From: Diplonema papillatum
Taxonomy: Eukaryota; Euglenozoa; Diplonemea; Diplonemida; Diplonemidae
Assembly (NCBI GenBank): GCA_030068145.1
Contig: JAPJBO010000203.1
Span: 1-64,000, forward strand
Direction of reading: 5' to 3'
Length of the DNA: 64,000 nt
Below are positions 1 to 11,860 of the stretch, piece after piece; position 1 is the stretch's first letter, and each line of letters starts with the position of its first letter. The position numbers were made by a program, and so were the translations under genes. The notes beneath the pieces were generated by a model. The model worked only from the letters and a program-made list of their open reading frames with translations. It was not told the DNA's origin and searched no databases.

Positions 1-3000
1 AATCAGCGGACGTGCCGTGCTTGATCCACTCAACGTCACCGTAGGCCGATCTGGTGTAGTTGTCCATCAGGTTCACCCACGTGTTCCCACCGTCCTCCGA
101 TCTGTAGACGTATTCCCCTTCTCCTTGTTTCGGTTCGCCTTGTTGGGCGTACACCGCAAGACTCGACATGATGATCACGTCCGGGTTTTTAGGATGGACG
201 TCCACACCGCCAAATCCATGTTCATGCGAGATGATCTGCGTCCAAAGACCACTGTCAATCGTGAAGCGGTACGCACGACCCCCGCCCCATACATCCCACG
301 GTCCCGGTGCACTCGCAAACGTCACGATCAGCTCGTTTGTCCCTCGCATGGCCACACGGACCGGTGCGAACCCTGCGGGTCCGCCGGCTGCTTCAGTCCA
401 CGTTTCTCCCGCATCATTTGACACGAAGAAGCTCGGACCGTTGAAGTTCGAAACGCCGACGAAGATACGCTGAGCGACACCCTTGTCGACACTGTTTGGA
501 TCCGGGTGCACCAAGCTCACACCATTCCTCCAGAAAAGATCTGTGATCCCATCCCAAGCATACCCCGGAAGCGGGTCGTCTTCAGCAAGTGCTGTAACAT
601 TCAGCGACGTGATCTTCGACCACGTGCTCCCATAGTCGGTACTCTTCAAAAGCCCGTCGAGACGCGTTCCGCAGTACAACACGTTGCTCGAGCCGGGGTC
701 GACAACCAGCTTTTCGCCAGTCACCCTCCCCATCCCGTTTCCGTGTGCCTTCCACACGTGAGACACGTCGATCACTTCGAAAGTCTCGCCGTAGTCCGTC
801 GATCGCAGGAACGCCGTCTTCCCATTGCTGCGGTCATCGCGAGCAGCCACCGCGTAAAGACGCGACGGATCTTTCGGGTCCAACGCCAACGTCTCCACAC
901 CCAGCAAGCCTTGGTCCTCGTAAGACACCCAGTCCATCAAAGGGTTCCATTTGCTGCCATCCCACTTGTACATACCACCAACGTCTGTTCTGATGTAGGT
1001 GAGGTGGGGTTCTTCAGTCCGGGTGACAATTCCAGCGACGTAACCAGCACCGCCCATGGCCACAGTGCCCATGGTGTAGTCTGGAGATGACGGAGTCGAC
1101 GGCGGTGTGGGTGCTGTGTTCATGTTCGATGAGAGCCTTCCGTAGGCGATGCCTCGCCCGCCAGTAGCAAGGAACCACGTGCCGAACTCGTTCATGTCTC
1201 CGATCAAGAAGTTCCCGTCATTCGGGCCACCGTACTGGTGCTTGTCGTCGTTCACACGCTCCCACGAGTTCGCCTCGTCGATCGACCTGTACACACCCAT
1301 CGTTGAGCTTGCCGTCGGCTTGCCCCAGATGTAAATGGCAAAGTAGCTTCGGCCTTCCGCTGCCTTGCCAAACCCGACTGTGCGCGCGTCAGCAACAGCC
1401 AGCAACTCGAACGACGTTCCCGAATCTGTCGTCCTCGCAAGACCCCCTGCTTTCAAAGCGACCCAAACGTCACCCTCGATGCCCGGTGCCGCCCTGACCA
1501 CCTCGGAGCCGCCTGAAGGCAGCGTCGACACTTCTGCGAACGTCAGACCACCGTCAACACTCACTTTGAAACTTCCATCGTTTTCGTACGCATAGAACTT
1601 GTTGTCCGCGACCCTGTCAGCAACAGCACGCAATGCAGTGAGGTTTGAGACCCTTGTCCAGTTCGTACCAAAGTTCTCGGTGTGGTATGTCACGCCAGCC
1701 GTTGTCAGGAGTACTGACTTGCAGTTCGCCGACACGGCGACTTCTCCTTGCGGTCCTCTGAATTCCTCGGTCTCAATCCAGCCAGACTCACCAGTCAACG
1801 TGTAGTAGATCTTCTCGTCACCTGCCCGCACTTGGCAGTTTGTGTCTAAGCCTGCGACGTCAAGGCCGTGCGTGGTTTTAATGTTCGGCTCGTGTCTGCG
1901 ATAGTACTTCGTGATGTCGTGGTGCACCATACCGTCGTAGTCTCCGACGGCGGAAATGAGGGAGATCCCCTCAACGCTGATAGCCTCGAGAGGCACCGTC
2001 TCCTCAAGACCTGCAACGGTGAATTCCCAATTGACTGCAGACGCACCGATGTCAGTAGACCTCCAGATGCCGTTCCCGGAAGTAATCCAAACCTTCTTGT
2101 AGTCCGAAGGATCGAACTTCAAACACCCACCCCAATGGATGGAATAATCAGCGGTTGTGCCGTGCTTGATCCACTCAACGTCACCGTAGGCCGATCTGGT
2201 GTAGTTGTCCATCAGGTTCACCCACGTGTTCCCACCGTCCTCCGATCTGTAGACGTATTCCCCTTCTCCTTGTTTCGGTTCGCCTTGTTGGGCGTACACC
2301 GCAAGACTCGACATGATGATCACGTCCGGGTTTTTAGGATGGACGTCCACACCGCCAAATCCATGTTCATGCGAGATGATCTGCGTCCAAAGACCACTGT
2401 CAATCGTGAAGCGGTACGCACGACCCCCGCCCCATACATCCCACGGTCCCGGTGCACTCGCAAACGTCACGATCAGCTCGTTTGTCCCTCGCATGGCCAC
2501 ACGGACCGGTGCGAACCCTGCGGGTCCGCCGGCTGCTTCAGTCCACGTTTCTCCCGCATCATTTGACACGAAGAAGCTCGGACCGTTGAAGTTCGAAACG
2601 CCGACGAAGATACGCTGAGCGACACCCTTGTCGACACTGTTTGGATCCGGGTGCACCAAGCTCACACCATTCCTCCAGAAAAGATCTGTGATCCCATCCC
2701 AAGCATACCCCGGAAGCGGGTCGTCTTCAGCAAGTGCTGTAACATTCAGCGACGTGATCTTCGACCACGTGCTCCCATAGTCGGTACTCTTCAAAAGCCC
2801 GTCGAGACGCGTTCCGCAGTACAACACGTTGCTCGAGCCGGGGTCGACAACCAGCTTTTCGCCAGTCACCCTCCCCATCCCGTTTCCGTGTGCCTTCCAC
2901 ACGTGAGACACGTCGATCACTTCGAAAGTCTCGCCGTAGTCCGTCGATCGCAGGAACGCCGTCTTCCCATTGCTGCGGTCATCGCGAGCAGCCACCGCGT

Positions 3001-6000
3001 AAAGACGCGACGGATCTTTCGGGTCCAACGCCAACGTCTCCACACCCAGCAAGCCTTGGTCCTCGTAAGACACCCAGTCCATCAAAGGGTTCCATTTGCT
3101 GCCATCCCACTTGTACATACCACCAACGTCTGTTCTGATGTAGGTGAGGTGGGGTTCTTCAGTCCGGGTGACAATTCCAGCGACGTAACCAGCACCGCCC
3201 ATGGCCACAGTGCCCATGGTGTAGTCTGGAGATGACGGAGTCGACGGCGGTGTGGGTGCTGTGTTCATGTTCGATGAGAGCCTTCCGTAGGCGATGCCTC
3301 GCCCGCCAGTAGCAAGGAACCACGTGCCGAACTCGTTCATGTCTCCGATCAAGAAGTTCCCGTCATTCGGGCCACCGTACTGGTGCTTGTCGTCGTTCAC
3401 ACGCTCCCACGAGTTCGCCTCGTCGATCGACCTGTACACACCCATCGTTGAGCTTGCCGTCGGCTTGCCCCAGATGTAAATGGCAAAGTAGCTTCGGCCT
3501 TCCGCTGCCTTGCCAAACCCGACTGTGCGCGCGTCAGCAACAGCCAGCAACTCGAACGACGTTCCCGAATCTGTCGTCCTCGCAAGACCCCCTGCTTTCA
3601 AAGCGACCCAAACGTCACCCTCGATGCCCGGTGCCGCCCTGACCACCTCGGAGCCGCCTGAAGGCAGCGTCGACACTTCTGCGAACGTCAGACCACCGTC
3701 AACACTCACTTTGAAACTTCCATCGTTTTCGTACGCATAGAACTTGTTGTCCGCGACCCTGTCAGCAACAGCACGCAATGCAGTGAGGTTTGAGACCCTT
3801 GTCCAGTTCGTACCAAAGTTCTCGGTGTGGTATGTCACGCCAGCCGTTGTCAGGAGTACTGACTTGCAGTTCGCCGACACGGCGACTTCTCCTTGCGGTC
3901 CTCTGAATTCCTCGGTCTCAATCCAGCCAGACTCACCAGTCAACGTGTAGTAGATCTTCTCGTCACCTGCCCGCACTTGGCAGTTTGTGTCTAAGCCTGC
4001 GACGTCAAGGCCGTGCGTGGTTTTAATGTTCGGCTCGTGTCTGCGATAGTACTTCGTGATGTCGTGGTGCACCATACCGTCGTAGTCTCCGACGGCGGAA
4101 ATGAGGGAGATCCCCTCAACGCTGATAGCCTCGAGAGGCACCGTCTCCTCAAGACCTGCAACGGTGAATTCCCAATTGACTGCAGACGCACCGATGTCAG
4201 TAGACCTCCAGATGCCGTTCCCGGAAGTAATCCAAACCTTCTTGTAGTCCGAAGGATCGAACTTCAAACACCCACCCCAATGGATGGAATAATCAGCGGT
4301 TGTGCCGTGCTTGATCCACTCAACGTCACCGTAGGCCGATCTGGTGTAGTTGTCCATCAGGTTCACCCACGTGTTCCCACCGTCCTCCGATCTGTAGACG
4401 TATTCCCCTTCTCCTTGTTTCGGTTCGCCTTGTTGGGCGTACACCGCAAGACTCGACATGATGATCACGTCCGGGTTTTTAGGATGGACGTCCACACCGC
4501 CAAATCCATGTTCATGCGAGATGATCTGCGTCCAAAGACCACTGTCAATCGTGAAGCGGTACGCACGACCCCCGCCCCATACATCCCACGGTCCCGGTGC
4601 ACTCGCAAACGTCACGATCAGCTCGTTTGTCCCTCGCATGGCCACACGGACCGGTGCGAACCCTGCGGGTCCGCCGGCTGCTTCAGTCCACGTTTCTCCC
4701 GCATCATTTGACACGAAGAAGCTCGGACCGTTGAAGTTCGAAACGCCGACGAAGATACGCTGAGCGACACCCTTGTCGACACTGTTTGGATCCGGGTGCA
4801 CCAAGCTCACACCATTCCTCCAGAAAAGATCTGTGATCCCATCCCAAGCATACCCCGGAAGCGGGTCGTCTTCAGCAAGTGCTGTAACATTCAGCGACGT
4901 GATCTTCGACCACGTGCTCCCATAGTCGGTACTCTTCAAAAGCCCGTCGAGACGCGTTCCGCAGTACAACACGTTGCTCGAGCCGGGGTCGACAACCAGC
5001 TTTTCGCCAGTCACCCTCCCCATCCCGTTTCCGTGTGCCTTCCACACGTGAGACACGTCGATCACTTCGAAAGTCTCGCCGTAGTCCGTCGATCGCAGGA
5101 ACGCCGTCTTCCCATTGCTGCGGTCATCGCGAGCAGCCACCGCGTAAAGACGCGACGGATCTTTCGGGTCCAACGCCAACGTCTCCACACCCAGCAAGCC
5201 TTGGTCCTCGTAAGACACCCAGTCCATCAAAGGGTTCCATTTGCTGCCATCCCACTTGTACATACCACCAACGTCTGTTCTGATGTAGGTGAGGTGGGGT
5301 TCTTCAGTCCGGGTGACAATTCCAGCGACGTAACCAGCACCGCCCATGGCCACAGTGCCCATGGTGTAGTCTGGAGATGACGGAGTCGACGGCGGTGTGG
5401 GTGCTGTGTTCATGTTCGATGAGAGCCTTCCGTAGGCGATGCCTCGCCCGCCAGTAGCAAGGAACCACGTGCCGAACTCGTTCATGTCTCCGATCAAGAA
5501 GTTCCCGTCATTCGGGCCACCGTACTGGTGCTTGTCGTCGTTCACACGCTCCCACGAGTTCGCCTCGTCGATCGACCTGTACACACCCATCGTTGAGCTT
5601 GCCGTCGGCTTGCCCCAGATGTAAATGGCAAAGTAGCTTCGGCCTTCCGCTGCCTTGCCAAACCCGACTGTGCGCGCGTCAGCAACAGCCAGCAACTCGA
5701 ACGACGTTCCCGAATCTGTCGTCCTCGCAAGACCCCCTGCTTTCAAAGCGACCCAAACGTCACCCTCGATGCCCGGTGCCGCCCTGACCACCTCGGAGCC
5801 GCCTGAAGGCAGCGTCGACACTTCTGCGAACGTCAGACCACCGTCAACACTCACTTTGAAACTTCCATCGTTTTCGTACGCATAGAACTTGTTGTCCGCG
5901 ACCCTGTCAGCAACAGCACGCAATGCAGTGAGGTTTGAGACCCTTGTCCAGTTCGTACCAAAGTTCTCGGTGTGGTATGTCACGCCAGCCGTTGTCAGGA

Positions 6001-9000
6001 GTACTGACTTGCAGTTCGCCGACACGGCGACTTCTCCTTGCGGTCCTCTGAATTCCTCGGTCTCAATCCAGCCAGACTCACCAGTCAACGTGTAGTAGAT
6101 CTTCTCGTCACCTGCCCGCACTTGGCAGTTTGTGTCTAAGCCTGCGACGTCAAGGCCGTGCGTGGTTTTAATGTTCGGCTCGTGTCTGCGATAGTACTTC
6201 GTGATGTCGTGGTGCACCATACCGTCGTAGTCTCCGACGGCGGAAATGAGGGAGATCCCCTCAACGCTGATAGCCTCGAGAGGCACCGTCTCCTCAAGAC
6301 CTGCAACGGTGAATTCCCAATTGACTGCAGACGCACCGATGTCAGTAGACCTCCAGATGCCGTTCCCGGAAGTAATCCAAACCTTCTTGTAGTCCGAAGG
6401 ATCGAACTTCAAACACCCACCCCAATGGATGGAATAATCAGCGGTTGTGCCGTGCTTGATCCACTCAACGTCACCGTAGGCCGATCTGGTGTAGTTGTCC
6501 ATCAGGTTCACCCACGTGTTCCCACCGTCCTCCGATCTGTAGACGTATTCCCCTTCTCCTTGTTTCGGTTCGCCTTGTTGGGCGTACACCGCAAGACTCG
6601 ACATGATGATCACGTCCGGGTTTTTAGGATGGACGTCCACACCGCCAAATCCATGTTCATGCGAGATGATCTGCGTCCAAAGACCACTGTCAATCGTGAA
6701 GCGGTACGCACGACCCCCGCCCCATACATCCCACGGTCCCGGTGCACTCGCAAACGTCACGATCAGCTCGTTTGTCCCTCGCATGGCCACACGGACCGGT
6801 GCGAACCCTGCGGGTCCGCCGGCTGCTTCAGTCCACGTTTCTCCCGCATCATTTGACACGAAGAAGCTCGGACCGTTGAAGTTCGAAACGCCGACGAAGA
6901 TACGCTGAGCGACACCCTTGTCGACACTGTTTGGATCCGGGTGCACCAAGCTCACACCATTCCTCCAGAAAAGATCTGTGATCCCATCCCAAGCATACCC
7001 CGGAAGCGGGTCGTCTTCAGCAAGTGCTGTAACATTCAGCGACGTGATCTTCGACCACGTGCTCCCATAGTCGGTACTCTTCAAAAGCCCGTCGAGACGC
7101 GTTCCGCAGTACAACACGTTGCTCGAGCCGGGGTCGACAACCAGCTTTTCGCCAGTCACCCTCCCCATCCCGTTTCCGTGTGCCTTCCACACGTGAGACA
7201 CGTCGATCACTTCGAAAGTCTCGCCGTAGTCCGTCGATCGCAGGAACGCCGTCTTCCCATTGCTGCGGTCATCGCGAGCAGCCACCGCGTAAAGACGCGA
7301 CGGATCTTTCGGGTCCAACGCCAACGTCTCCACACCCAGCAAGCCTTGGTCCTCGTAAGACACCCAGTCCATCAAAGGGTTCCATTTGCTGCCATCCCAC
7401 TTGTACATACCACCAACGTCTGTTCTGATGTAGGTGAGGTGGGGTTCTTCAGTCCGGGTGACAATTCCAGCGACGTAACCAGCACCGCCCATGGCCACAG
7501 TGCCCATGGTGTAGTCTGGAGATGACGGAGTCGACGGCGGTGTGGGTGCTGTGTTCATGTTCGATGAGAGCCTTCCGTAGGCGATGCCTCGCCCGCCAGT
7601 AGCAAGGAACCACGTGCCGAACTCGTTCATGTCTCCGATCAAGAAGTTCCCGTCATTCGGGCCACCGTACTGGTGCTTGTCGTCGTTCACACGCTCCCAC
7701 GAGTTCGCCTCGTCGATCGACCTGTACACACCCATCGTTGAGCTTGCCGTCGGCTTGCCCCAGATGTAAATGGCAAAGTAGCTTCGGCCTTCCGCTGCCT
7801 TGCCAAACCCGACTGTGCGCGCGTCAGCAACAGCCAGCAACTCGAACGACGTTCCCGAATCTGTCGTCCTCGCAAGACCCCCTGCTTTCAAAGCGACCCA
7901 AACGTCACCCTCGATGCCCGGTGCCGCCCTGACCACCTCGGAGCCGCCTGAAGGCAGCGTCGACACTTCTGCGAACGTCAGACCACCGTCAACACTCACT
8001 TTGAAACTTCCATCGTTTTCGTACGCATAGAACTTGTTGTCCGCGACCCTGTCAGCAACAGCACGCAATGCAGTGAGGTTTGAGACCCTTGTCCAGTTCG
8101 TACCAAAGTTCTCGGTGTGGTATGTCACGCCAGCCGTTGTCAGGAGTACTGACTTGCAGTTCGCCGACACGGCGACTTCTCCTTGCGGTCCTCTGAATTC
8201 CTCGGTCTCAATCCAGCCAGACTCACCAGTCAACGTGTAGTAGATCTTCTCGTCACCTGCCCGCACTTGGCAGTTTGTGTCTAAGCCTGCGACGTCAAGG
8301 CCGTGCGTGGTTTTAATGTTCGGCTCGTGTCTGCGATAGTACTTCGTGATGTCGTGGTGCACCATACCGTCGTAGTCTCCGACGGCGGAAATGAGGGAGA
8401 TCCCCTCAACGCTGATAGCCTCGAGAGGCACCGTCTCCTCAAGACCTGCAACGGTGAATTCCCAATTGACTGCAGACGCACCGATGTCAGTAGACCTCCA
8501 GATGCCGTTCCCGGAAGTAATCCAAACCTTCTTGTAGTCCGAAGGATCGAACTTCAAACACCCACCCCAATGGATGGAATAATCAGCGGTTGTGCCGTGC
8601 TTGATCCACTCAACGTCACCGTAGGCCGATCTGGTGTAGTTGTCCATCAGGTTCACCCACGTGTTCCCACCGTCCTCCGATCTGTAGACGTATTCCCCTT
8701 CTCCTTGTTTCGGTTCGCCTTGTTGGGCGTACACCGCAAGACTCGACATGATGATCACGTCCGGGTTTTTAGGATGGACGTCCACACCGCCAAATCCATG
8801 TTCATGCGAGATGATCTGCGTCCAAAGACCACTGTCAATCGTGAAGCGGTACGCACGACCCCCGCCCCATACATCCCACGGTCCCGGTGCACTCGCAAAC
8901 GTCACGATCAGCTCGTTTGTCCCTCGCATGGCCACACGGACCGGTGCGAACCCTGCGGGTCCGCCGGCTGCTTCAGTCCACGTTTCTCCCGCATCATTTG

Positions 9001-11860
9001 ACACGAAGAAGCTCGGACCGTTGAAGTTCGAAACGCCGACGAAGATACGCTGAGCGACACCCTTGTCGACACTGTTTGGATCCGGGTGCACCAAGCTCAC
9101 ACCATTCCTCCAGAAAAGATCTGTGATCCCATCCCAAGCATACCCCGGAAGCGGGTCGTCTTCAGCAAGTGCTGTAACATTCAGCGACGTGATCTTCGAC
9201 CACGTGCTCCCATAGTCGGTACTCTTCAAAAGCCCGTCGAGACGCGTTCCGCAGTACAACACGTTGCTCGAGCCGGGGTCGACAACCAGCTTTTCGCCAG
9301 TCACCCTCCCCATCCCGTTTCCGTGTGCCTTCCACACGTGAGACACGTCGATCACTTCGAAAGTCTCGCCGTAGTCCGTCGATCGCAGGAACGCCGTCTT
9401 CCCATTGCTGCGGTCATCGCGAGCAGCCACCGCGTAAAGACGCGACGGATCTTTCGGGTCCAACGCCAACGTCTCCACACCCAGCAAGCCTTGGTCCTCG
9501 TAAGACACCCAGTCCATCAAAGGGTTCCATTTGCTGCCATCCCACTTGTACATACCACCAACGTCTGTTCTGATGTAGGTGAGGTGGGGTTCTTCAGTCC
9601 GGGTGACAATTCCAGCGACGTAACCAGCACCGCCCATGGCCACAGTGCCCATGGTGTAGTCTGGAGATGACGGAGTCGACGGCGGTGTGGGTGCTGTGTT
9701 CATGTTCGATGAGAGCCTTCCGTAGGCGATGCCTCGCCCGCCAGTAGCAAGGAACCACGTGCCGAACTCGTTCATGTCTCCGATCAAGAAGTTCCCGTCA
9801 TTCGGGCCACCGTACTGGTGCTTGTCGTCGTTCACACGCTCCCACGAGTTCGCCTCGTCGATCGACCTGTACACACCCATCGTTGAGCTTGCCGTCGGCT
9901 TGCCCCAGATGTAAATGGCAAAGTAGCTTCGGCCTTCCGCTGCCTTGCCAAACCCGACTGTGCGCGCGTCAGCAACAGCCAGCAACTCGAACGACGTTCC
10001 CGAATCTGTCGTCCTCGCAAGACCCCCTGCTTTCAAAGCGACCCAAACGTCACCCTCGATGCCCGGTGCCGCCCTGACCACCTCGGAGCCGCCTGAAGGC
10101 AGCGTCGACACTTCTGCGAACGTCAGACCACCGTCAACACTCACTTTGAAACTTCCATCGTTTTCGTACGCATAGAACTTGTTGTCCGCGACCCTGTCAG
10201 CAACAGCACGCAATGCAGTGAGGTTTGAGACCCTTGTCCAGTTCGTACCAAAGTTCTCGGTGTGGTATGTCACGCCAGCCGTTGTCAGGAGTACTGACTT
10301 GCAGTTCGCCGACACGGCGACTTCTCCTTGCGGTCCTCTGAATTCCTCGGTCTCAATCCAGCCAGACTCACCAGTCAACGTGTAGTAGATCTTCTCGTCA
10401 CCTGCCCGCACTTGGCAGTTCGAGTCCAAGCCTGCCACGTCAAGGCCGTGTGCGGTGCCAAGGTTTGGTTCGTGTCTGCGATAGTACTTCGTAACGTCGT
10501 GGTGCACCATACCGTCGTAGTCTCCGACGGCGGAAATGAGGGGGATTCCCTCAATGCTGATAGCCTCGAGAGGCACCGTCTCCTCAAGACCTGCAACGGT
10601 GAATTCCCAATTGACTGCAGACGCACCGATGTCAGTAGACCTCCAGATGCCGTTCCCGGAAGTAATCCAAACCTTCTTGTAGTCCGAAGGATCGAACTTC
10701 AAGCATCCGCCCCAATGAATGGAAAATCCTGCTGACGTGCCGTGGTTGATCCACTCAACGTCACCATAGGCCGATCTGGTGTAGTTGTCCATCAGGTTCA
10801 CCCACGTGTTCCCACCGTCCTCCGATCTGTAGACGTATTCCCCTTCTCCTTGTTTCGGTTCGCCTTGTTGGGCGTACACCGCAAGACTCGACATGATGAT
10901 CACGTCCGGGTTTTTAGGATGGACGTCCACACCGCCAAATCCATGTTCATGCGAGATGATCTGCGTCCAAAGACCACTGTCAATCGTGAAGCGGTACGCA
11001 CGACCCCCGCCCCATACATCCCACGGTCCCGGTGCACTCGCAAACGTCACGATCAGCTCGTTTGTCCCTCGCATGGCCACACGGACCGGTGCGAACCCTG
11101 CGGGTCCGCCGGCTGCTTCAGTCCACGTTTCTCCCGCATCATTTGACACGAAGAAGCTCGGACCGTTGAAGTTCGAAACGCCGACGAAGATACGCTGAGC
11201 GACACCCTTGTCGACACTGTTTGGATCCGGGTGCACCAAGCTCACACCATTCCTCCAGAAAAGATCTGTGATCCCATCCCAAGCATACCCCGGAAGCGGG
11301 TCGTCTTCAGCAAGTGCTGTAACATTCAGCGACGTGATCTTCGACCACGTGCTCCCATAGTCGGTACTCTTCAAAAGCCCGTCGAGACGCGTTCCGCAGT
11401 ACAACACGTTGCTCGAGCCGGGGTCGACAACCAGCTTTTCGCCAGTCACCCTCCCCATCCCGTTTCCGTGTGCCTTCCACACGTGAGACACGTCGATCAC
11501 TTCGAAAGTCTCGCCGTAGTCCGTCGATCGCAGGAACGCCGTCTTCCCATTGCTGCGGTCATCGCGAGCAGCCACCGCGTAAAGACGCGACGGATCTTTC
11601 GGGTCCAACGCCAACGTCTCCACACCCAGCAAGCCTTGGTCCTCGTACGACACCCAGTCCATCAAAGGGTTCCATTTGCTGCCATCCCACTTGTACATAC
11701 CACCAACGTCTGTTCTGATGTAGGTGAGGTGGGGTTCTTCGGTCCGGGTGACAATTCCAGCGACGTAACCAGCACCGCCCATGGCAACGTTTCCATAGGT
11801 GTAATGTTTCGGCTCACCTTCCAGAGCTGTGGCAAGAGCCAAAATAGCAACTGCTAACAT
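1..11860 (-). CDS. Giant secreted protein of six tandem GH74-type (xyloglucanase-like) modules, 3' end outside window
   Basis: Reading down from the ATG at 11860 there is no stop to the window edge, giving at least 3953 codons. Residues 1-13 form a hydrophobic, signal-peptide-like start. Each 715-residue unit is one GH74-like double beta-propeller. Module 1 has Asp-box motifs near residues 112, 165, 239, 346, 574 and 617, an RTDVGG motif (D51) and GDYDG (D447), which match in position the two catalytic aspartates known for GH74, plus a DDKHQYGG motif at 678-685. A Pro/Ser/Thr-rich linker (about 716-733) joins it in frame to module 2. Later modules start near 9640, 7495, 5350, 3205 and 1060; module 6 is cut before its second Asp. 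Known of the family: endo- or exo-hydrolysis of xyloglucan outside the cell. Inferred: a secreted multi-enzyme chain. No intron is needed. Other Asp-box propellers (sortilin, sialidase) fit the RTDVGG/DDKHQYGG pair less well. Confidence 0.85.
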   Translation of the reverse strand, partial: MLAVAILALATALEGEPKHYTYGNVAMGGAGYVAGIVTRTEEPHLTYIRTDVGGMYKWDGSKWNPLMDWVSYEDQGLLGVETLALDPKDPSRLYAVAARDDRSNGKTAFLRSTDYGETFEVIDVSHVWKAHGNGMGRVTGEKLVVDPGSSNVLYCGTRLDGLLKSTDYGSTWSKITSLNVTALAEDDPLPGYAWDGITDLFWRNGVSLVHPDPNSVDKGVAQRIFVGVSNFNGPSFFVSNDAGETWTEAAGGPAGFAPVRVAMRGTNELIVTFASAPGPWDVWGGGRAYRFTIDSGLWTQIISHEHGFGGVDVHPKNPDVIIMSSLAVYAQQGEPKQGEGEYVYRSEDGGNTWVNLMDNYTRSAYGDVEWINHGTSAGFSIHWGGCLKFDPSDYKKVWITSGNGIWRSTDIGASAVNWEFTVAGLEETVPLEAISIEGIPLISAVGDYDGMVHHDVTKYYRRHEPNLGTAHGLDVAGLDSNCQVRAGDEKIYYTLTGESGWIETEEFRGPQGEVAVSANCKSVLLTTAGVTYHTENFGTNWTRVSNLTALRAVADRVADNKFYAYENDGSFKVSVDGGLTFAEVSTLPSGGSEVVRAAPGIEGDVWVALKAGGLARTTDSGTSFELLAVADARTVGFGKAAEGRSYFAIYIWGKPTASSTMGVYRSIDEANSWERVNDDKHQYGGPNDGNFLIGDMNEFGTWFLATGGRGIAYGRLSSNMNTAPTPPSTPSSPDYTMGTVAMGGAGYVAGIVTRTEEPHLTYIRTDVGGMYKWDGSKWNPLMDWVSYEDQGLLGVETLALDPKDPSRLYAVAARDDRSNGKTAFLRSTDYGETFEVIDVSHVWKAHGNGMGRVTGEKLVVDPGSSNVLYCGTRLDGLLKSTDYGSTWSKITSLNVTALAEDDPLPGYAWDGITDLFWRNGVSLVHPDPNSVDKGVAQRIFVGVSNFNGPSFFVSNDAGETWTEAAGGPAGFAPVRVAMRGTNELIVTFASAPGPWDVWGGGRAYRFTIDSGLWTQIISHEHGFGGVDVHPKNPDVIIMSSLAVYAQQGEPKQGEGEYVYRSEDGGNTWVNLMDNYTRSAYGDVEWIKHGTTADYSIHWGGCLKFDPSDYKKVWITSGNGIWRSTDIGASAVNWEFTVAGLEETVPLEAISVEGISLISAVGDYDGMVHHDITKYYRRHEPNIKTTHGLDVAGLDTNCQVRAGDEKIYYTLTGESGWIETEEFRGPQGEVAVSANCKSVLLTTAGVTYHTENFGTNWTRVSNLTALRAVADRVADNKFYAYENDGSFKVSVDGGLTFAEVSTLPSGGSEVVRAAPGIEGDVWVALKAGGLARTTDSGTSFELLAVADARTVGFGKAAEGRSYFAIYIWGKPTASSTMGVYRSIDEANSWERVNDDKHQYGGPNDGNFLIGDMNEFGTWFLATGGRGIAYGRLSSNMNTAPTPPSTPSSPDYTMGTVAMGGAGYVAGIVTRTEEPHLTYIRTDVGGMYKWDGSKWNPLMDWVSYEDQGLLGVETLALDPKDPSRLYAVAARDDRSNGKTAFLRSTDYGETFEVIDVSHVWKAHGNGMGRVTGEKLVVDPGSSNVLYCGTRLDGLLKSTDYGSTWSKITSLNVTALAEDDPLPGYAWDGITDLFWRNGVSLVHPDPNSVDKGVAQRIFVGVSNFNGPSFFVSNDAGETWTEAAGGPAGFAPVRVAMRGTNELIVTFASAPGPWDVWGGGRAYRFTIDSGLWTQIISHEHGFGGVDVHPKNPDVIIMSSLAVYAQQGEPKQGEGEYVYRSEDGGNTWVNLMDNYTRSAYGDVEWIKHGTTADYSIHWGGCLKFDPSDYKKVWITSGNGIWRSTDIGASAVNWEFTVAGLEETVPLEAISVEGISLISAVGDYDGMVHHDITKYYRRHEPNIKTTHGLDVAGLDTNCQVRAGDEKIYYTLTGESGWIETEEFRGPQGEVAVSANCKSVLLTTAGVTYHTENFGTNWTRVSNLTALRAVADRVADNKFYAYENDGSFKVSVDGGLTFAEVSTLPSGGSEVVRAAPGIEGDVWVALKAGGLARTTDSGTSFELLAVADARTVGFGKAAEGRSYFAIYIWGKPTASSTMGVYRSIDEANSWERVNDDKHQYGGPNDGNFLIGDMNEFGTWFLATGGRGIAYGRLSSNMNTAPTPPSTPSSPDYTMGTVAMGGAGYVAGIVTRTEEPHLTYIRTDVGGMYKWDGSKWNPLMDWVSYEDQGLLGVETLALDPKDPSRLYAVAARDDRSNGKTAFLRSTDYGETFEVIDVSHVWKAHGNGMGRVTGEKLVVDPGSSNVLYCGTRLDGLLKSTDYGSTWSKITSLNVTALAEDDPLPGYAWDGITDLFWRNGVSLVHPDPNSVDKGVAQRIFVGVSNFNGPSFFVSNDAGETWTEAAGGPAGFAPVRVAMRGTNELIVTFASAPGPWDVWGGGRAYRFTIDSGLWTQIISHEHGFGGVDVHPKNPDVIIMSSLAVYAQQGEPKQGEGEYVYRSEDGGNTWVNLMDNYTRSAYGDVEWIKHGTTADYSIHWGGCLKFDPSDYKKVWITSGNGIWRSTDIGASAVNWEFTVAGLEETVPLEAISVEGISLISAVGDYDGMVHHDITKYYRRHEPNIKTTHGLDVAGLDTNCQVRAGDEKIYYTLTGESGWIETEEFRGPQGEVAVSANCKSVLLTTAGVTYHTENFGTNWTRVSNLTALRAVADRVADNKFYAYENDGSFKVSVDGGLTFAEVSTLPSGGSEVVRAAPGIEGDVWVALKAGGLARTTDSGTSFELLAVADARTVGFGKAAEGRSYFAIYIWGKPTASSTMGVYRSIDEANSWERVNDDKHQYGGPNDGNFLIGDMNEFGTWFLATGGRGIAYGRLSSNMNTAPTPPSTPSSPDYTMGTVAMGGAGYVAGIVTRTEEPHLTYIRTDVGGMYKWDGSKWNPLMDWVSYEDQGLLGVETLALDPKDPSRLYAVAARDDRSNGKTAFLRSTDYGETFEVIDVSHVWKAHGNGMGRVTGEKLVVDPGSSNVLYCGTRLDGLLKSTDYGSTWSKITSLNVTALAEDDPLPGYAWDGITDLFWRNGVSLVHPDPNSVDKGVAQRIFVGVSNFNGPSFFVSNDAGETWTEAAGGPAGFAPVRVAMRGTNELIVTFASAPGPWDVWGGGRAYRFTIDSGLWTQIISHEHGFGGVDVHPKNPDVIIMSSLAVYAQQGEPKQGEGEYVYRSEDGGNTWVNLMDNYTRSAYGDVEWIKHGTTADYSIHWGGCLKFDPSDYKKVWITSGNGIWRSTDIGASAVNWEFTVAGLEETVPLEAISVEGISLISAVGDYDGMVHHDITKYYRRHEPNIKTTHGLDVAGLDTNCQVRAGDEKIYYTLTGESGWIETEEFRGPQGEVAVSANCKSVLLTTAGVTYHTENFGTNWTRVSNLTALRAVADRVADNKFYAYENDGSFKVSVDGGLTFAEVSTLPSGGSEVVRAAPGIEGDVWVALKAGGLARTTDSGTSFELLAVADARTVGFGKAAEGRSYFAIYIWGKPTASSTMGVYRSIDEANSWERVNDDKHQYGGPNDGNFLIGDMNEFGTWFLATGGRGIAYGRLSSNMNTAPTPPSTPSSPDYTMGTVAMGGAGYVAGIVTRTEEPHLTYIRTDVGGMYKWDGSKWNPLMDWVSYEDQGLLGVETLALDPKDPSRLYAVAARDDRSNGKTAFLRSTDYGETFEVIDVSHVWKAHGNGMGRVTGEKLVVDPGSSNVLYCGTRLDGLLKSTDYGSTWSKITSLNVTALAEDDPLPGYAWDGITDLFWRNGVSLVHPDPNSVDKGVAQRIFVGVSNFNGPSFFVSNDAGETWTEAAGGPAGFAPVRVAMRGTNELIVTFASAPGPWDVWGGGRAYRFTIDSGLWTQIISHEHGFGGVDVHPKNPDVIIMSSLAVYAQQGEPKQGEGEYVYRSEDGGNTWVNLMDNYTRSAYGDVEWIKHGTSAD
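1..11860 (-). repeat. 2145-bp tandem repeat encoding the GH74 modules
   Basis: The DNA repeats with a period of exactly 2145 bp (715 codons), so copy number can change without breaking the frame. The internal copies look identical wherever I compared them, including identical shadow-frame translations. The first module differs from them mainly in two clusters (about 10420-10560 and 10700-10770) plus a few bases near 11647, 11741 and its unique N-terminus. The last, partial copy differs at bases 10-11, where it shares a variant with copy 1 rather than with the internal copies. This points to recent expansion or gene conversion of internal copies. Confidence 0.95.

Follow-up and report, generated by a model that had tools for sequence, protein, structure and literature searches.

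Dinoflagellate luciferase, an unrelated enzyme that is not known to have a surface anchor, carries three tandem homologous catalytic domains in one chain. Comparable chains are described from the phylum to which Diplonema belongs. The Euglena polyproteins RBCS and LHC consist of tandem near-identical units joined by short linkers in one reading frame, and they are plastid-targeted and excised at decapeptide linkers (PMC4938576). In Diplonema (Paradiplonema) papillatum itself, three membrane pectin enzymes (DIPPA_26123, DIPPA_17995, and DIPPA_19114) contain several complete domains of one category, located at the membrane and preceded by a signal peptide (PMC12697944, December 2025). The same paper places a GH74 protein, DIPPA_10258, in a cell-membrane proteomic cluster and describes it as lacking TMD and GPI signals; its section on DIPPA_10258 mentions no repeats.

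The GH74 locus of D. papillatum analyzed here shares features with each of these systems. Like the Euglena polyproteins, it repeats near-identical units on short linkers in one frame, and like the membrane pectin enzymes, it combines several complete domains of one enzyme kind. It resembles the GH74 xyloglucanases represented by 6p2l and by 2cn2/2cn3 of Clostridium thermocellum in whole-module sequence, predicted fold, and both aspartates. However, one GH74 domain per frame was found in the bacterial set checked, whereas the Diplonema loci combine seven and three. The array also differs from the Euglena polyproteins in its secretory-type start, its Pro/Ser/Thr linker, and its membrane tail. 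The published Diplonema enzymes act on pectin, follow a signal peptide, and are located at the membrane. The GH74 array has a hydrophobic start recognized by eye and an in-frame anchor on a second contig, C1199, which one NCBI model skips.

The window, i.e., the whole stretch of DNA analyzed, covers 64,000 nt (C203:1‒64000) of a 271-Mb genome assembly in 2910 contigs. A stop-free frame on its minus strand runs unbroken from the ATG to the window edge (Table 1), where the array is truncated by the contig edge and not by the window alone. The period of the array is exactly 2145 nt, with a self-identity of 99.1% at that shift and of 23‒28% at six neighboring shifts. A tandem repeat finder missed the array, since the longest period that it handles is 500. 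The frame contains five full GH74 modules and 1063 nt of a sixth. The sequence-only reading had described one open frame of at least 3953 codons with at least six modules of 715 codons on a Pro/Ser/Thr linker; this description stands, provided that the partial module is counted as the sixth. The motifs RTDVGG and AVGDYDG occur six and five times in the frame, respectively, and motif counts and alignment agree that the aspartates proposed at positions 51 and 447 of module 1 are kept in every complete module. Modules 2, 3, 4, and 5 show zero DNA differences over 8.6 kb. Module 1 differs from them by 33 nt (11 amino acids), with 30 of the 33 differences concentrated in a 346-nt patch at module positions 1022‒1367. 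The sequenced part of module 6 departs from module 2 at two nucleotides, neither of them more than 11 nt from the contig end. Elsewhere in the window, the minus strand carries a hAT transposase-like frame (22233‒24614), a frame for an SGT1 protein (PF07093; 33211‒35499) that adjoins two TPR protein frames, and retroelement frames for RNase H and reverse transcriptase (58148‒63334).

Table 1. Positions of the GH74 array and its parts in the 64,000-nt window.
Feature	Positions	Strand	Basis
Coding frame of the 5' part of the gene, with the remainder on C1199	2..11860	-	3953-codon open frame
Putative signal peptide MLAVAILALATALEGE, end approximate	11813..11860	-	By eye; the C741 and C116 genes start with a similar hydrophobic stretch
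GH74 module 1 and following linker	9644..11788	-	Repeat comparison; 33 nt off modules 2‒5
GH74 module 2 and linker	7499..9643	-	Repeat comparison, PDB match, predicted fold
GH74 module 3, identical to module 2	5354..7498	-	Repeat comparison
GH74 module 4, identical to module 2	3209..5353	-	Repeat comparison
GH74 module 5, identical to module 2	1064..3208	-	Repeat comparison
GH74 module 6, first 1063 nt; remainder taken to be the C1199 end, 1 nt missing between	1..1063	-	Repeat comparison
Pro/Ser/Thr linker SSNMNTAPTPPSTPSSPDYTMGT; four more follow in the window at 2145-nt intervals	9644..9712	-	Module ends disordered in model
Catalytic-type aspartate D51 of module 1 (RTDVGG)	11708..11710	-	Alignment
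Catalytic-type aspartate D447 of module 1 (AVGDYDG)	10520..10522	-	Alignment
Module 1 patch with 30 of the 33 differences from module 2; mosaic, conversion-like	10421..10766	-	Module comparison

The only Pfam families above the cut-offs on the module are Sortilin-Vps10 and BNR, and these names would suit another propeller of the BNR/Asp-box type, sortilin-like and not GH74. We regard this possibility as negligible, since GH74 enzymes match over the whole module in both the PDB and Foldseek comparisons and both aspartates are present; the sortilin-like naming is overridden by the same observations. Among PDB sequences, the best match is 6p2l, the NkGH74 of Niastella koreensis (E = 1.4e-133). 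At E ≤ 1e-40, 17 distinct PDB sequences were found, 15 of them matched over nearly the whole module, and 1sqj and 2ebs, which we take to be GH74 enzymes, over residues 20‒302. The AF2 model of the module, built from 40 sequences, has a pLDDT of 86.4 and a pTM of 0.88, with linker ends below 50. Foldseek again placed 6p2l first (TM 0.86/0.92), and rows 1‒25 are GH74 or xyloglucan-cleaving enzymes by title. The TMq of 0.82‒0.88 to solved GH74 structures (rows 1‒23) agrees with a fold of two seven-bladed β-propellers. All 40 rows of the alignment keep D51 and D447, 2cn3 has Ala at the site of the 2cn2 Asp that aligns with D51, and the mutants D465N and D60A are named in structure titles (2ebs, 6mgl). 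On sequence and predicted structure, the module is thus firmly assigned to GH74, as the sequence-only reading had it, and the best match is not a propeller of another family. Xyloglucan is the presumed substrate of the module, and hydrolysis its presumed activity.

A processive attack had also been suggested from the sequence, and in the usual GH74 sense this appears doubtful. In the Diplonema module, Tyr329-Ala330 takes the place of the tryptophan pair that 6p2m and 2cn2 have in the alignment, within or next to a loop (residues 330‒338) of low confidence in the AF2 model. Aromatic residues at +3/+5 are tied to processivity and their absence to an endo-dissociative mode (review, PMC10317168; Xanthomonas, PMC8245568), and our tryptophan site was linked to the mutated processivity pair through these two papers, not by direct alignment with that enzyme. 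However, 6p2l has W-S at this site in the same alignment, and NkGH74 is called processive in the review (PMC10317168). Since NkGH74 is described as processive with only one tryptophan there, the tryptophan argument against processivity is weak.

A protein search of the genome gave 13 matches: C203 holds six of them, C741 three, C1199 two, and C116 one, and the last is a fragment on C124. C1199 ends inside an array-type module and carries the 3' end of an identical array. C203 ends at module position 1062 (0-based) and C1199 starts at 1064, so that the two abut with one base missing. Module 6 of C203 is module-1-like at positions 1052‒1053; the partial module of C1199 is module-1-like at 1079, 1241, and 1293 and elsewhere like module 2. 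Because both halves have module-1-like bases and the ends abut, we read C203 and C1199 as one gene, and one module split by a contig break is the simplest reading of these ends. The joined gene would contain, as assembled, seven modules in 5200 amino acids (~562 kDa). Since modules 2‒5 are identical, the assembler could have altered the copy number, which may therefore differ from seven.

We consider it unlikely that the array is smaller in the cell, whether because modules 2‒5 were multiplied by the assembler or because their number varies between cells. The identity of modules 2‒5 and the ending of both contigs within the array would suit a smaller array, but at least four modules are distinguishable by sequence or neighbor (module 1, the module-2 type, the mosaic module 6, and the last module beside the tail), and the trimer on C741 is independent of the array. 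This trimer (C741:34840‒41304) encodes 2155 amino acids in three diverged modules, whose starts are 714 codons apart, and lies inside a 114-kb contig. An assembly artefact as the full explanation, a possibility raised along with the sequence-only reading, is ruled out by this complete trimer within another contig, the divergence of its modules, the similar linker, and the dN/dS values.

The dS and dN/dS values were calculated by the Nei-Gojobori method, which gives only rough values as dS approaches 1. Array and trimer are separated by a dS of 0.83‒0.89, with a dN/dS of 0.10‒0.13; between array and monomer (C116, one GH74 module in 728 amino acids), dS is 1.24‒1.26 and dN/dS is 0.10. The trimer modules differ among themselves by a dS of 0.14‒0.20, with a dN/dS of 0.21‒0.29. 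The internal modules of array and trimer start with a similar linker (TPPSTPSSPDYTMGT / PPPSTPSSPDYTMGT), a 20-nt exact stretch is common to the array linker and one of the two trimer linkers, and the first modules of the array, trimer, and monomer genes begin with Y-x-YGN. The common linker suggests that the tandem form predates the array/trimer split, unless the linker was copied between the loci later, and its retention at a dS of ~0.85 with a dN/dS of ~0.10‒0.13 argues that the tandem form is old, selected, and no assembly artefact. The modules seem to have been homogenized within each locus. In the tree, array modules group together and trimer modules group together, as homogenization would give, and separate amplification from a two-module ancestor would give the same grouping. 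The six Diplonema modules included in the tree form one clade (100) beside bacterial GH74. Since no other eukaryotic GH74 was knowingly part of the tree set, the tree does not settle the donor of a horizontal transfer. The C124 match (L013, C124:273055‒273193) is a 49-codon fragment with 86% DNA identity, apparently a relic.

After YGRLPPK, the last module on C1199 runs on in frame for 191 residues, which comprise a small domain, an acidic stretch (EDDDLSS), a predicted transmembrane helix IVVGCLVGAGLILGGIAVF, and a short end. The Kyte-Doolittle mean of the helix is 2.56; the maximum anywhere in the trimer or monomer is 1.28, and neither protein has a C-terminal anchor by hydropathy. The fold of the tail has no name because Pfam gives nothing above a cut-off for it. 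Tail-like places in the genome number 25 at E ≤ 1e-3, 24 besides the tail itself, and the weaker ones score 26‒30 bits. The acidic-LS..AIAGIV motif, searched as a fixed pattern, is present in 14 of the 19 tail-like loci inspected and absent in five; at five of the 14 motif loci (L045, L046, L048, L049, and L050), the match is limited to approximately residues 131‒174, the acidic and membrane part. One tail-like place, C1486:36859‒36972, lies in a 1193-aa frame, and a GH28 match at C1486:37966‒38886 agrees with it in strand, phase, and frame length. Since the tail occurs in frame with GH28 and at many other places, the anchor appears to be a surface module that recurs in the genome and is carried by another wall enzyme too. 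At L047 (C1383:29417‒29953, minus strand), residues 5‒188 of the 191 are matched (30 bits) within a 4117-aa open frame. Long surface-protein-like frames with an acidic-LSGGAIAGIVIGC anchor and Cys-rich repeats are clustered at C198:97667‒205812.

The public D. papillatum records at the C1199, C741, and C116 loci are named "Xyloglucanase Xgh74A", and on these protein matches a prokaryotic source for the contigs was rejected. No listed protein record corresponds to the C203 frame (listed lengths ~401‒1276, 1185‒3771, and 2174‒6918 residues), and, given the lengths covered, a shorter gene model for this frame may exist. The NCBI model at the C1199 end, P0002, departs from the frame at a GT that follows LPPK and is continued ~6.26 kb farther along, where an AG acceptor is present; it ends LPPK-CTSWADEK..., with the anchor spliced out. 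If this intron is real and removes the anchor, whether in every transcript or through alternative splicing, the gene would encode a chain that is secreted in soluble form, as the absence of an anchor from trimer and monomer would also allow. We judge this improbable, a little more so than a smaller array. The skipped 191-residue stretch is in frame and resembles 24 other places in the genome, and in the sister model on C741, P0003, the beginning of module 1 is fused to the end of module 3. The "intron" of P0003 measures 4284 nt, exactly 2.0 modules, and the only GT/GC-AG pair that it allows is a GC-AG motif shared by both modules. Real introns between modules were rejected as spurious on the basis of this length, which indicates that gene models in these arrays are unreliable, and the genome paper cautions that spurious introns can arise where there are repeats (PMC10161547). 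The in-frame tail is more likely than the P0002 splice, and a soluble splice form is possible. The predicted anchor, in frame on C1199 and outside the window, fits the bound attack on walls that had been suggested for the array. If the DIPPA_10258 model is the C1199 model, the skipped tail would explain why this protein is said to lack an anchor, which is a guess on our part.

Taking these observations together, we consider, with a probability of roughly 0.55, that the window holds the 5' part of a real nuclear gene for a secreted chain of ~7 GH74 modules that is membrane-anchored, intact, multivalent, endo-acting, and kept by purifying selection. The product would be exported as modules on short disordered Pro/Ser/Thr linkers, with the C-terminal domain, the acidic stalk, and the transmembrane helix fixing it in the plasma membrane. 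Remaining intact, it may act as a multivalent brush of endo-xyloglucanase modules, each lacking the tryptophans that usually go with processivity; such modules would attack one wall repeatedly from tethered copies near the cell, not by the sliding of a single module. The tandem form would have arisen before the array and trimer diverged and been kept by purifying selection and homogenization within each locus. The presence of a GH74 protein of this species in the cell-membrane proteomic cluster would support a surface location if that protein stems from this locus (PMC12697944). On the other hand, the same protein is said there to lack TMD and GPI signals, the NCBI model on C1199 would make the product partly or wholly soluble if its intron is real, and trimer and monomer have no anchor. 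The identity of modules 2‒5 leaves their number alterable by the assembler, and the processivity assigned to NkGH74 weighs against a non-processive module.

The related Euglena makes cleaved polyproteins, and the main rival to a tethered, intact chain is that the array is likewise cut at its linkers, in the secretory path or outside the cell, to release single ~78-kDa enzymes, the array serving dosage. In the same phylum, Euglena RBCS is made as eight repeats from which the decapeptide linkers are excised (PMC4938576). The Diplonema modules are nearly identical as well, and their linkers, which are disordered in the model, would be accessible to proteases. However, the array linkers contain no dibasic site, which is a mild argument against kexin-like cutting, and cutting would leave the anchor with the last module only. 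The linkers are rich in Pro, Ser, and Thr, as are ordinary CAZyme linkers. The array linker is also unlike the Euglena longa decapeptide NMAAMTGEKD (PMC4938576). We hold cleavage into single enzymes to be the less probable outcome, about one-half as credible as an intact tethered chain. The Euglena repeats are also collapsed by transcript assembly (PMC4938576).

Tandem GH74 appears to be rare. Word-based protein searches covered 5.77 billion sequences, and the matches listed were the best 120 of 1576, all 72, and one. More than 850 covered residues were found in three of the 192 proteins checked among the 193 listed (all except P0196, 22% identity), namely P0002 of the array itself, P0184, and P0193. 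The latter two were rejected as tandem GH74, being distant BNR proteins with stretches of 22‒30% identity and no clear GH74 pair; no other clear tandem GH74 is present among the matches listed. Two GH74 domains in one frame were found at none of 80 bacterial loci, the best 80 of at least 584 confirmed stretches. In the literature on Diplonema and diplonemid wall enzymes and on tandem catalytic domains, we found no report of tandem GH74, and the abbreviation GH74 is absent from the main texts of both species papers (PMC10161547, PMC12697944). In what was searched, the Diplonema proteins thus seem to be the only homopolymeric GH74. The frame structure and these searches bear out a rare tandem homopolymer, and its description as a new architecture is right for GH74 within the sequences searched; repeated domains of a single kind had already been published for the pectin enzymes of this species (PMC12697944).

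Other wall-enzyme families of this genome were examined for domains in a common frame, as judged by equal open-frame length and phase. For GH5 (PF00150), 16 of 35 matches lie in four C33 frames with four in-phase modules each, and two more share a 1612-aa frame on C890. The C33 frames (C33:417337‒460525) are neighbors of 1899, 2093, 1899, and 2129 amino acids, with GH5 modules at the same spacings. For GH28 (PF00295), six of 32 matches lie in two C1486 frames of 2951 and 2874 amino acids at a spacing of 2670 nt (C1486:10862‒41542), and a single phase break, of 2665 nt, separates the two frames. The 1193-aa GH28 frame on the same contig has at its end a membrane anchor similar to the one on the GH74 array. 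Three of eight pectinesterase (PF01095) matches are in phase in one 3945-aa frame (C606:6302‒14278), and by distance and frame length none of 19 GH115 (PF15979) matches share a frame. We tentatively propose, as an idea that falls somewhat short of even odds, that diplonemids build surface "poly-enzymes", in which a domain is multiplied in frame, homogenized, and fusible to a common anchor, and in which the number of modules sets the dose and the avidity for prey walls. The GH74 array (~7 modules, ~0.56 MDa) would be the clearest case, in which tethering would turn non-processive modules processive; frames with tandem domains exist for GH5, GH28, and pectinesterase too, with an anchor on one GH28 frame, and not for GH115.

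Gene models can be faulty in such arrays, with two modules or the anchor apparently skipped, and this affects CAZyme counts and proteomic searches in this species. Diplonemids are called among the most abundant marine microeukaryotes (PMC10161547). An anchored GH74 array would offer a natural test of whether linking identical endo-enzymes alters their attack on a polymer, and it would provide a concrete molecular basis for the surface digestion of plant and algal walls.
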